In this document: one piece after another, positions 5,477 through 45,741 of the stretch
Layout of the letters: the number at the start of each line of letters is the position of its first letter
Position numbering within the stretch: the first letter of the stretch is position 1
DNA from: Planctomycetota bacterium
Lineage (GTDB): Bacteria > Planctomycetota > Phycisphaerae > FEN-1346
Direction: 5' to 3'
DNA length: 64,000 bases
Assembly (NCBI GenBank): GCA_030602705.1
Contig: JAUVZF010000002.1
Coordinates: 1 to 64,000 of the forward strand
The notes under the pieces: generated by a model
Told to the model about the DNA's origin: nothing
Database searches by the model: none
The model's input: the letters and a program-made list of their open reading frames with translations, nothing else
Program-made: the position numbers and the translations under genes

Positions 5477-5604
5477 GTACGTGTTTAGCGTCCCACGCGC
5501 CACCAAGAGGGTGGCACGGCAGCGGCGAAGCCGCGGCCGTGGGTCGCGTCGCGCCGAGTGCGGGTGCACGGCCCAAGGGCCGTGCCACCCCGCTAAACAC
5601 GTAC
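5477..5604. mobile_element. Miniature element, subfamily A copy 1 (128 bp)
   Basis: Termini GTACGTGTTTAGCG / CGCTAAACACGTAC; direct repeat ATTCCATG at 5468-5475 and 5605-5612; near-identical to 45614-45741. Confidence 0.85.
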
Positions 5605-15912: not shown

Positions 15913-16076
15913 GTACGTGTTTAGCGTGTCATTCCGAGCGAGCGAAAAAGAGTCGAGTCCCGGCGCGCCGGGATCGCCGTTATGCGTGTCCGGACGACGA
16001 GATTTCTCCGCTCGCCTCGCCTTTGGCGAGCGCTCGGTCGAAATGACATCGCTTTGAGAGCACGCTAAACAGGTAC
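15913..16076. mobile_element. Miniature element, subfamily B copy 1 (164 bp)
   Basis: Termini GTACGTGTTTAGCGTG / CACGCTAAACAGGTAC; perfect 8-bp direct repeat GTTTTCGG at 15905-15912 and 16077-16084. Confidence 0.92.
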
Positions 16077-29043: not shown

Positions 29044-30564
29044 ATGAGCGACGCTGAGATGAAACCCGGCGACACGATCCTGCGTATGGAAGGCATCGAG
29101 AAGGACTTCGGGGCGGTCCGCGCGCTGGACCACGTCGATTTCGACCTCTGCGCCGGCGAGATACACGCTCTTGTCGGCGAGAACGGCGCCGGCAAGTCCA
29201 CCCTGATGAACGTCCTGGCCGGCCGCTTTGCGGATTACCGCGGACGGCTCGCCGTCTTCGGGCGACAGGTCCGCCTGACCAACCCCCGCCAGGCACTTGG
29301 CCTGGGCATCGGTGTCATCTACCAGGAACTGAGCGTTCTCGGAAACCTGACCGTGGCCGAGAACATCATGCTCGGTCACGAGCCGGCCGGCCGCCTGCCC
29401 GGTACGCTCGACAGGCGCGCCCTGGCCGCCCAGGCTCAAGCCGTGCTCACCGAACTGGAGTTCGACCTGCGCCCGGATGCGCGCGTCGCGGGCCTGAGTC
29501 ACGCTCGTCAGTGCCTGGTTGAGATCGCCCATGCCATCCGAAAGGACGTGCGGCTGCTGGTGTTCGACGAGCCGACCGCATCGCTCGGCGGAGACGACGT
29601 CGGTCGGCTCTTCGAGGTCATCCGCCGCCTGAAGGCCCGCGGCATCGGCATCATCTACATCTCACACCGACTCGCCGAACTGCCGCAGATCGCCGACCGC
29701 GTGACCGTCCTTCGCGACGGCAAGGTCGTCGGAACACGCCGGATTGCCGACTGCAAGGTATCGGCGCTCAGCCAGATGATGCTCGGCCGCAAACTGACCG
29801 ACATGTTCCCCCCGAAGCGCAACACGCCCGGCGAGGTGATTCTGAAGGTGCGCGGCCTGACGCGTCCGGGGGCGTTCCACGACATCTCGTTCGATCTGCG
29901 CGAGGGCGAGATCCTTGGCATCGCCGGCCTCGTGGGCTCCGGCCGGACCGAAATCGCGCGGGCCGTCTTCGGAGCCGACCGGGCCGCCGGACGATGCGAA
30001 TTCCTGGGCCGGCCGCTACCCCGGCGCTCGCCCAAGCGGTGCATGGCGCGCGGCATCGGGATGATCCAGGAAGACCGCAAACGCGACGGAACCATCACGG
30101 ACTCCTCGGTCGGCCTGAACATCGGCATCAGCGTTCTCGACCGTCTGTCCGGCGCCGTCGGCTTGCTGCGCCCGCGCCGCATCCGAAACAACGCCCGTCG
30201 AATGATCGACCGCATGGGCATCCGGCCGACCGACCCGGCCCGATTGATCCAGACCCTGAGCGGAGGCAACCAGCAGAAGGTGGTACTCGGACGCTGGCTC
30301 TGCCGCGACCCGAAAGTCCTGATCCTTGACGAACCGACCCAGGGCATCGACATCGGCACGAAGGCCCAGATCTACCGCCTCATAATGGACCTGGCCGCCG
30401 CCGGCAAAGGAATTATCCTGATCTCGTCGGAGTTCTTCGAGATCGTCAATCTCGCCGACCGCATCCTGATGGTCCGCGACGGGCGGATCGTGCGCGAGAT
30501 GCCCGGCCCCGGGACCGACGTGGACGCCCTGTTTGCGGCATGCATCGGAGAAGGTGACGAATGA
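29044..30564 (+). CDS. Sugar ABC transporter ATPase (RbsA/MglA type, two ABC domains)
   Basis: Walker A GENGAGKST; signature LSGGNQQKVVLGRWLCRDPKVLILDEPTQGIDIGTKAQIY. Confidence 0.95.
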   Translation: MSDAEMKPGDTILRMEGIEKDFGAVRALDHVDFDLCAGEIHALVGENGAGKSTLMNVLAGRFADYRGRLAVFGRQVRLTNPRQALGLGIGVIYQELSVLGNLTVAENIMLGHEPAGRLPGTLDRRALAAQAQAVLTELEFDLRPDARVAGLSHARQCLVEIAHAIRKDVRLLVFDEPTASLGGDDVGRLFEVIRRLKARGIGIIYISHRLAELPQIADRVTVLRDGKVVGTRRIADCKVSALSQMMLGRKLTDMFPPKRNTPGEVILKVRGLTRPGAFHDISFDLREGEILGIAGLVGSGRTEIARAVFGADRAAGRCEFLGRPLPRRSPKRCMARGIGMIQEDRKRDGTITDSSVGLNIGISVLDRLSGAVGLLRPRRIRNNARRMIDRMGIRPTDPARLIQTLSGGNQQKVVLGRWLCRDPKVLILDEPTQGIDIGTKAQIYRLIMDLAAAGKGIILISSEFFEIVNLADRILMVRDGRIVREMPGPGTDVDALFAACIGEGDE

Positions 30565-31610
30565 CCGCGAATCCTCAACCGCCCACGCCCGCCGGAGGCC
30601 GTTGGAAACCGTCGTTTCAACTCATCCAGGCGGGCACCGTCCTGCTGCTGCTGCTCGTCCTCTGCGCCGTCTCGGCCAGTCAGACCGAGACCTTCCTGAC
30701 GTGGCAGAACCTGGTCTATAACCTGCTGACCAATGCGGCGTACCTGGGGATCATGGCGTGCGGCATGACGTTCGTGATGGTGGCGGGCGGCTTCGACCTG
30801 TCGGTCGGGTCAACGACCACGGTGTGCAGCGTGGTAACCGTCCTCGCGCTCCAGGCCCTGACGGGCCAACCCGTGTGGGTGTCCATTGTGGTTGCCGTCC
30901 TTGTGACGGCCGCGGCCGGGACCCTTCTCGGCGCCCTCAACGGCGCCACCATCTCCTACATCGGGGTCAACCCGTTTGTGGCGACGCTGAGCACGATGCT
31001 GGTGTTTCGCGGCATCGCCCTGATTCTGACGCACGGCGGGCAGACCGAGAGCGTCCCGCTCGCGATGAAGAACACGTTCAGCCAACTGTACTGGGGCAAG
31101 GTCCCCCTGTTCGGGAGCGAGGCGTACCAGGTTACGGTGCCGATACTGGTTTTCGCCGGCGTTTTTCTCATCTGCCTGTACGTGCTCCGTTTCACACGGT
31201 TCGGCCACTACGTTTACGCCGTGGGGGGAAACGAGAACGCCTCGTGGCTGGCCGGGATCAACACCTCGCTCGTCAAGGCCGCCACGTACGCCATCTGCGG
31301 CCTGACGTGCGCCGTGGCGGCCGTCATCTACACCGGCATGTCGAACACGGCCCAGGCGGCGAGTTACCGCGGACTGGAACTGGTGGTGATCGCCAGTGTC
31401 ATCGTGGGTGGCACGCCGCTCGGCGGGGGGAGCGGGGGGCTGCTCTTCACCCTGGTCGGGCTGTTGCTGCTGTCGGTCATCGAGAACCTCCTGCCGCAGT
31501 TTGGGGTTCAAGAAGAGTACCGGAACATCGTCAGAGGGCTTATCATTCTCGTGGTCGTCGCCGTGGACGTGCTGGCCCGGGGGGGCGGCAGAAAAGCAAG
31601 GAGAACGTGA
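30561..31610 (+). CDS. Sugar ABC transporter permease (RbsC type)
   Basis: Polytopic; GMTFVMVAGGFDLSVGSTTTVCSV; GGTPLGGGSGGLLFTLVG. Confidence 0.93.
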   Translation: MTANPQPPTPAGGRWKPSFQLIQAGTVLLLLLVLCAVSASQTETFLTWQNLVYNLLTNAAYLGIMACGMTFVMVAGGFDLSVGSTTTVCSVVTVLALQALTGQPVWVSIVVAVLVTAAAGTLLGALNGATISYIGVNPFVATLSTMLVFRGIALILTHGGQTESVPLAMKNTFSQLYWGKVPLFGSEAYQVTVPILVFAGVFLICLYVLRFTRFGHYVYAVGGNENASWLAGINTSLVKAATYAICGLTCAVAAVIYTGMSNTAQAASYRGLELVVIASVIVGGTPLGGGSGGLLFTLVGLLLLSVIENLLPQFGVQEEYRNIVRGLIILVVVAVDVLARGGGRKARRT

Positions 31611-31611
31611 C

Positions 31612-32748
31612 ATGGCAAGTCGCTCGTGGTACCTGTTTAGCGTGCTCTCGAAGCGATGTCATTTCGACCGAGGCCTCGCGCAGCGAGGCCGAGCGGAGAA
31701 ATCTCGTCGTCCGGACACGGATAACGGCGATCCCGACGCGCCGGGACTCGACTCCCGCGGCTGCGCCGCGGTCGCTCGGAATGACACCACGCTAAACAGG
31801 TACCGCTCGTCTTTAGCGGCGGTCGCGGCACTGGCGCTGGCACTGACGATGGGCTGTTCGGGCGATGACCCTACCGAGGCCGGCGGGCCGGGTGCGCCCG
31901 CGGCGTTCAAGATCGGATTCTGCATGACCCTCGACCATCCTTACTGGCAGAACATGCGGCTCGGATCCGTCGACGAGGGCAGGAAACTCGGCGCCGAGGT
32001 CATCATCATGAACGCCAAAGAGGACCCGGTGCTCCAGATTCAGCAGATCCAGGAACTCATCGCCAAACAGGTGGACCTGGCGTGCGTGGTGCCCATGAAG
32101 AGAGAGCCGCTCGTCGCGGGCGTGCGGGCGCTGAACGAGGCCAATATCCCCGTCATCATCGTTAACCGCGAGGTCGCCGAAGGATGCGACTACCTCTGCT
32201 ACACGGGAACCGACACCTACGCCGGGGCCGTTACGTCGGCCGAGATACTCATGGACGCCATCGGAGGGGTGGGCGGCATCGTCGAACTCCACCAGCACCT
32301 CGGCACCGGCCCGCAACTCGCGCGCTCAAAGGGCCTCCGGGATGTGCTCGCAAAGTATCCGGACGTCACACTCCTCGGCCGCGCGCCTCACGGCGGCGAC
32401 CGCGGCAAGGCCATCAAGGAGACGCAGGTCTGGCTCGGCAAGTTCCCCGACCTGAAGGGCATCTACGCACACGGCGACAACTTCGCCATCGCCGCAGCCG
32501 ACGCCTGCCGCCAGGCCGGCCGCAGCCACGTCGCCGTCGTCGGCATGGGCGGCAGCCAGGAGGCCATCGAGGCCATCAGGGAAGGCCGGCTCACGGGCAC
32601 GAGTTTCCAGCAGCCCGAGGAGGAAGGACGCAGCGCCCTGCGCCTGGCCGTCCGCCACCTCAACGGCGAGACGCTCAGGGAATCGTACCTCATCCCCTGC
32701 CCGCCCATCACGAAGGAGAACGCCCACCAGTTCAAGGGCCAGTTCTGA
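31612..32748 (+). CDS. Sugar ABC transporter substrate-binding lipoprotein (RbsB type) carrying an in-frame element insertion
   Basis: MASRS-[61 aa]-RSSLAAVAALALALTMGCSGDD; mature KIGFCMTLDHPYWQNMRLGSVDEGRKLGAEVIIMNAKEDPVLQIQQIQELIAKQVD. Confidence 0.9.
   Translation: MASRSWYLFSVLSKRCHFDRGLAQRGRAEKSRRPDTDNGDPDAPGLDSRGCAAVARNDTTLNRYRSSLAAVAALALALTMGCSGDDPTEAGGPGAPAAFKIGFCMTLDHPYWQNMRLGSVDEGRKLGAEVIIMNAKEDPVLQIQQIQELIAKQVDLACVVPMKREPLVAGVRALNEANIPVIIVNREVAEGCDYLCYTGTDTYAGAVTSAEILMDAIGGVGGIVELHQHLGTGPQLARSKGLRDVLAKYPDVTLLGRAPHGGDRGKAIKETQVWLGKFPDLKGIYAHGDNFAIAAADACRQAGRSHVAVVGMGGSQEAIEAIREGRLTGTSFQQPEEEGRSALRLAVRHLNGETLRESYLIPCPPITKENAHQFKGQF
31629..31803. mobile_element. Miniature element, subfamily B copy 2 (175 bp), inside the substrate-binding-protein ORF
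   Basis: Termini GTACCTGTTTAGCGTG / CACGCTAAACAGGTAC; direct repeat CGCTCGTG (31621-31628) / CGCTCGTC (31804-31811). Confidence 0.9.
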
Positions 32749-45613: not shown

Positions 45614-45741
45614 GTACGTGTTTAGCGTCCCACGCGCCACCAAGAGGGTGGCACGGCAGCGACGAAGACGCGGCCGTGGGCCGCATCGCGCCGAGTGCGG
45701 CTGCACGGCCCAGGGGCCGTGCCACCCCGCTAAACACGTAC
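45614..45741. mobile_element. Miniature element, subfamily A copy 2 (128 bp)
   Basis: Same length as 5477-5604 with ~6 mismatches by eye; flanks CCCGACTC (45606-45613) / CCCGACCC (45742-45749). Confidence 0.85.

Follow-up and report, generated by a model that had tools for sequence, protein, structure and literature searches.

A short transposable element inserted in frame within the signal peptide of a planctomycete sugar-binding lipoprotein gene

Can a mobile element enter the start of a protein-coding gene, keep its reading frame and still leave a protein that could be exported? The question is raised by a sugar-binding lipoprotein gene of an uncultured Planctomycetota bacterium, located in a 64,000-nucleotide stretch of DNA (hereafter, the window; all positions refer to it). 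Genes for an ABC ATPase and a BPD_transp_2 permease immediately precede it, a DUF5703/GH95-like gene comes after it, and this transporter/GH95-like set is flanked on both sides by URO-D family genes. The permease stop codon (31608-31610) is separated from the lipoprotein ATG by 1 bp. Residues 106-353 match Pfam Peripla_BP_4 (E=2.8e-51), the body being that of an RbsB-like sugar-binding protein. The frame is open from the ATG at 31612 (translation MASRSWYLFSVLSKRCHFDRG...DTTLNRYRSSLAAVAALALALTMGC), with no stops and no frameshifts past the insertion. The features of the locus are collected in Table 1.

Table 1. Features of the lipoprotein locus, in window positions
Feature	Position	Strand	Basis
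ABC sugar-transporter permease gene	30561..31610	+	Pfam BPD_transp_2 (E=5.5e-38) and open reading frame
Shine-Dalgarno sequence AAGGAG	31598..31603	+	18 bases (AAGCAAGGAGAACGTGAC) 5' of the ATG identical in the nearest orthologue
Gene for the sugar-binding lipoprotein (378 aa), with 61 codons inserted in frame	31612..32748	+	Pfam Peripla_BP_4 (E=2.8e-51) and open frame
Left target-site duplication (TSD) CGCTCGTG	31621..31628	.	8-bp TSD rule from 55 copies
Miniature inverted-repeat element (MITE), 175 bp, without transposase	31629..31803	.	Family of ~100 copies with terminal inverted repeats (TIRs) and 8-bp TSD
Left TIR GTACCTGTTTAGCG	31629..31642	+	Inverted-repeat and family searches
Inner palindromic core TGTCATTTCGACCGAG...GGAATGACA	31657..31786	.	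Occurs in another genus of the family, there lacking these TIRs
Right TIR GTACCTGTTTAGCG (reverse strand)	31790..31803	-	Inverted-repeat and family searches
Right TSD CGCTCGTC	31804..31811	.	One mismatch to the left TSD
Rest of signal-peptide hydrophobic region and lipobox SLAAVAALALALTMGC	31810..31857	+	Cys is codon 82 (31855-31857)

Boundaries, ancestral state and identity of the insertion

The boundaries of the window copy were set from its family, in which a 14-bp TIR, GTACSTGTTTAGCG, stands beside exact 8-bp duplications in most of 55 paired copies. The inverted arms of the window copy itself extend over 22 bp (31628-31649 and 31783-31804) and are imperfect. The left TSD corresponds to nucleotides 10-17 of the coding sequence, the element begins at nucleotide 18, and 7 of the 8 TSD bases are identical between the two sides. 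Element and duplicated target together amount to 175+8 = 183 bp, i.e., 61 added codons without a stop. When the flanks are joined with a single repeat copy, they read MASRSSLAAVAALALALTMGC with the frame unchanged, and the lipobox cysteine, codon 82 in the present gene, becomes codon 21. The segment SLAAVAALALALTMGC consists of a hydrophobic core followed by the lipobox and its cysteine and fits the lipobox pattern.

Orthologues support this reconstruction. The nearest (G003/L032, same family, 76% identity) carries the identical leader AAGCAAGGAGAACGTGACATG with Cys at position 21 and no insert, and the distance from Cys to the TLDxPYWQNM motif is 24 residues both there and in the window protein. 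The shared leader, Cys position and motif spacing anchor the start codon and the signal peptide on either side of the insertion. A second orthologue of 76% identity (L061) likewise has Cys at 21 and a spacing of 24. The insert was absent from all 18 orthologues examined, a set in which two lack a lipobox by the pattern used and the starts of a few are less certain. The initial annotation had described an element in frame inside the signal peptide, its arithmetic of 61 stop-free codons and a clean lipoprotein signal without it; all three are borne out by the repeats, the family, the open frame and the absence of the extension from every orthologue examined. Its further suggestion that the insertion was caught early appears plausible, because the TSDs still match at seven bases and the copy is, over most of its length, identical to stretches of copies elsewhere in the genome.

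At 175 bp the insertion is within the range of roughly 50-600 bp typical of MITEs and is devoid of a transposase, and it belongs to a family with TIRs, a TSD of constant length and many dispersed copies. It thus agrees with the definition of a MITE in every respect tested, the parent insertion sequence aside. The clear 8-bp TSDs of the family set it apart from REP/RAYT-type repeats, which are defined as lacking them. An Rfam search at the insertion site gave no match, and a literature search with the letters of the repeat returned only unrelated matches.

Since the TSD is 8 bp long, IS66 was considered as the parent; this genome contains none, and the copies in two relatives carry no matching TIR. 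A 1454-bp TIR pair in another genome (G004) proved to be a one-ended repeat next to a separate MITE. A 70-bp stretch that starts with the same TIR (GTACGTGTTTAGCGTCCCCGGCGTCACRTGACGCCG) occurs about nine times in one-ended form, with different sequence beyond it (L141:2930-3083, L220-L226). At the nine places followed, there was no partner end and no transposase, either between matching ends or with a matching TSD.

A repeat family with exchangeable cores

The TIR was searched across the 3.88-Mb genome. At up to one mismatch, GTACSTGTTTAGCG was found at 201 ends, compared with 1 for a reversed control pattern, and the window alone holds 8 TIR-like matches against 0.17 expected; the occurrence of the TIR is therefore not due to chance. 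A search with the whole element gave 40 matches in the genome. About 0.58 Mb of sequence, the window among it, yielded 55 paired copies (122-298 bp), most of them with an exact 8-bp TSD. The family amounts to approximately 100 copies, and nearly all of those sampled are intergenic. Outside this genome, one copy in another genus of the same family (L166) combines these ends with an exact 8-bp TSD, and more such copies were found in G001 and G004. Across the class, the distribution of these ends is patchy (14 of 199 genomes).

Many contigs of the source assembly, G000 (C4, C10, C11, C29, C32, C33, C38, C103 and others), have an end that lies about 140 bp inside a copy, and the family is probably a main cause of assembly breaks in this genome.

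Among the copies with enough flank, 0 of 49 were clearly coding on both sides by a coding score, a test that is blind to insertions in the first or last few codons, the window copy included. No clear out-of-frame insertion in the interior of a gene was seen among the sampled copies. Four apparent intragenic cases (L114, L119, L134 and the window copy at 15913) were discarded, as the flanking genes begin or stop beside the element or the spanning frame looks non-coding. The in-frame copies in the sample were the one in the lipoprotein gene and one other, at the last codon of a predicted open reading frame (L163:18932-19109); it would add about 60 C-terminal residues to the product of this putative gene. 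Recurrent in-frame insertion across many genes, the hallmark of Rickettsia palindromic elements, was not seen among the sampled copies of this family.

The palindromic cores found within the same TIRs and 8-bp TSD are unrelated to one another; they begin with TGTCATTTCGACCGAG or GGGTGGCACGGCC and, in G001, with GGGCGGCCACATGGGGCCGCCCC. The window itself contains four copies of this shell (5477-5604, 15913-16076, 31629-31803 and 45614-45741). For the core type of the lipoprotein insertion, 25 module combinations were counted in 43 copies, and the hairpin module of the window copy has a single match in its own genome and is otherwise found in G002. In that genome, which belongs to another genus of the family, the core TGTCATTTCGACCGAGGCCTCGCGCAGCGAGGCCGAGCGGAG gave 32 matches (L177-L186) with no exact TIR match and no GTAC ends. 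Its abundance there without these ends indicates that core and shell are separable. The MITE ends thus behave as a shell around several unrelated palindromic cores, and this modular make-up is a more unusual observation than the in-frame insertion.

Translation, export and competing explanations

How often such a copy would leave a gene readable was estimated from the 43 copies of this core type. Their 258 strand-by-frame readings include 43 open ones; openness coincides with a frame-keeping length in 11 of 258 (4.3%), which serves as the neutral expectation. The forward frame used in the lipoprotein gene is open in 10 copies; openness is therefore built into some copies, and selection is not needed to account for it. 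Given a chance of roughly 4% for each insertion and a genome that carries about 100 elements, a single survivor of this kind is unsurprising and calls for no special mechanism.

Within the first 100 residues, hydrophobicity is confined to the original h-region, which now begins at about residue 65, behind an extended n-region with 13 K/R and 8 D/E. According to the position rule of PROSITE PS00013, a lipobox Cys lies at about residues 15-35; the gene without the insert conforms to this rule, while Cys 82 does not. Lipoprotein signal peptidase (signal peptidase II) cuts before the lipobox Cys. As the added residues fall within the part it removes, the mature protein would be unchanged if export succeeds, and the insertion would represent an extension of the signal peptide rather than of the mature protein, provided that the product is exported and matured normally.

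We consider it probable that the MITE inserted by chance, kept the frame and survived, that the gene is translated from its original ATG and that export then removes all MITE-derived residues. The insertion near the 5' end of the RbsB-like coding sequence is evident from the sequence, and the non-autonomous element would have been mobilised in trans by a transposase making 8-bp target duplications. The copy is open in the frame read and, with its duplicated target, has lengthened the coding sequence and introduced neither stop nor frameshift. Survival would have followed chance, as the other copies of the family suggest that gene-breaking insertions are purged. The start of translation is most likely still the original ATG with its conserved ribosome-binding site, yielding a pre-lipoprotein with a net-basic n-region of about 66 residues, followed by the intact hydrophobic core and lipobox. 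If the Sec pathway exports it, cleavage before Cys82 would release the usual mature protein, with lower expression or slower export as the likely cost. Counting against this account are an n-region longer than usual at 66 residues, a Cys outside the PROSITE range and a stable RNA hairpin near the start codon, which could hinder translation.

A rather less likely explanation is that the lipoprotein is silenced or badly impaired, either by a hairpin that blocks translation or by a long n-region that stops export, the open frame being coincidental and the gene a young pseudogene. The RNA of 31590-31850 is predicted to fold to -128 kcal/mol (z = -4.6), its long stem beginning 14 nt after the A of AUG, and such a strong and stable hairpin right by the start codon may lower translation. 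The neutral chance estimated above also speaks for impairment, as does the presence in the genome of two weaker paralogues (31% and 27% identity). Against it stand the intact remainder of the gene and the lack of clear interior out-of-frame insertions among the sampled copies, which suggests that broken genes are not freely tolerated. The insertion nevertheless looks too recent for the intactness of the frame 3' of it to establish function.

The further proposal that the extended signal is itself functional, the protein being exported and matured from a MITE-derived n-region of about 66 residues, with signal peptides as safe landing sites and the extension tuning expression or export, we regard as unlikely.

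Restart of translation at an internal codon 3' of the element, restoring a short signal peptide, is very improbable: the CTG codons 74-78 and ATG codon 80 do lie in or after the hydrophobic core, but neither ATG, GTG nor TTG occurs in frame between codons 11 (GTG) and 80, ATG80 leaves just two residues ahead of the lipobox Cys, and none of these codons is preceded by an AGGAG-like Shine-Dalgarno sequence. The internal start that the initial annotation had allowed for is thus not available, and an exported lipoprotein must begin at the original ATG or at GTG11, with the added residues in its signal peptide.

Equally little weight is given to the insertion being an artefact of assembly or a variant carried by a minority of the sampled population. 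The draft assembly is fragmented and many of its contigs end inside copies of the same repeat, but breaks about 140 bp into identical copies suggest a k-mer of about 141; moreover, the hairpin module of the window copy is unique in the genome, and the site, which has a proper TSD, is deep within a 105-kb contig, so that the assembly path is probably unique.

Relation to known in-frame insertions

As a type of event, the in-frame fusion of a MITE to a gene is already known from Rickettsia palindromic elements (RPE), ERIC, Correia and QMITE. RPE are palindromic mobile repeats of about 100-150 bp found in frame in protein genes, and at least one fusion, in Gmk, yields a translated and active protein (PMC2229807, PMC10969869). 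The window MITE resembles them as a short palindromic mobile repeat inserted in frame in a gene. In contrast, RPE occur in numerous conserved genes and lack established TSDs, whereas the present family has a clear 8-bp TSD and nearly all of its copies are intergenic, and the in-frame insertion described here lies within a cleavable signal peptide.

Among ERIC, Correia and other enterobacterial and neisserial MITEs, open frames are fused in frame to genes, and some of these fusions involve predicted signal-peptide or transmembrane segments (PMC2229807). Their sequences are unrelated to the window MITE and their TSDs differ; in the window, the signal peptide comes from the host gene and is lengthened by the MITE. 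QMITE1 and QMITE2 of Coxiella burnetii comprise about 50 copies per family, some inserted in frame, QMITE2 measuring 150-190 bp with duplications of 7-11 nt (PMC5896051). Coxiella genes of known function were struck only at the 3' end, with no 5' cases seen there (PMC5896051), whereas the window MITE occupies the 5' end and a cleavable region.

A parallel for the resulting signal is the extended signal peptide region (ESPR) of autotransporters, 25 residues that precede a normal signal sequence whose C-terminal part usually suffices for export (PMC8151025). Both place a long extra n-region before an otherwise normal Sec signal; ESPR proteins are exported, while export of the window protein is predicted. 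Type 5 secretion proteins share the ESPR as a conserved sequence of 25 residues, whereas the MITE-derived sequence is unrelated and longer, and any function it has is putative. By analogy, the ESPR indicates that a long additional n-region need not stop a signal from working.

In-frame fusions of mobile elements are a proposed source of new protein sequence. The locus described here is a clean example: a relative shows the ancestral state, the TSD is near-exact and the prediction is simple. A concentration of MITE fusions in signal peptides would, if true, be a general rule, which a single case can only suggest. A cleaved signal peptide could be a tolerant entry point for such elements, where inserted codons place no burden on the mature protein.
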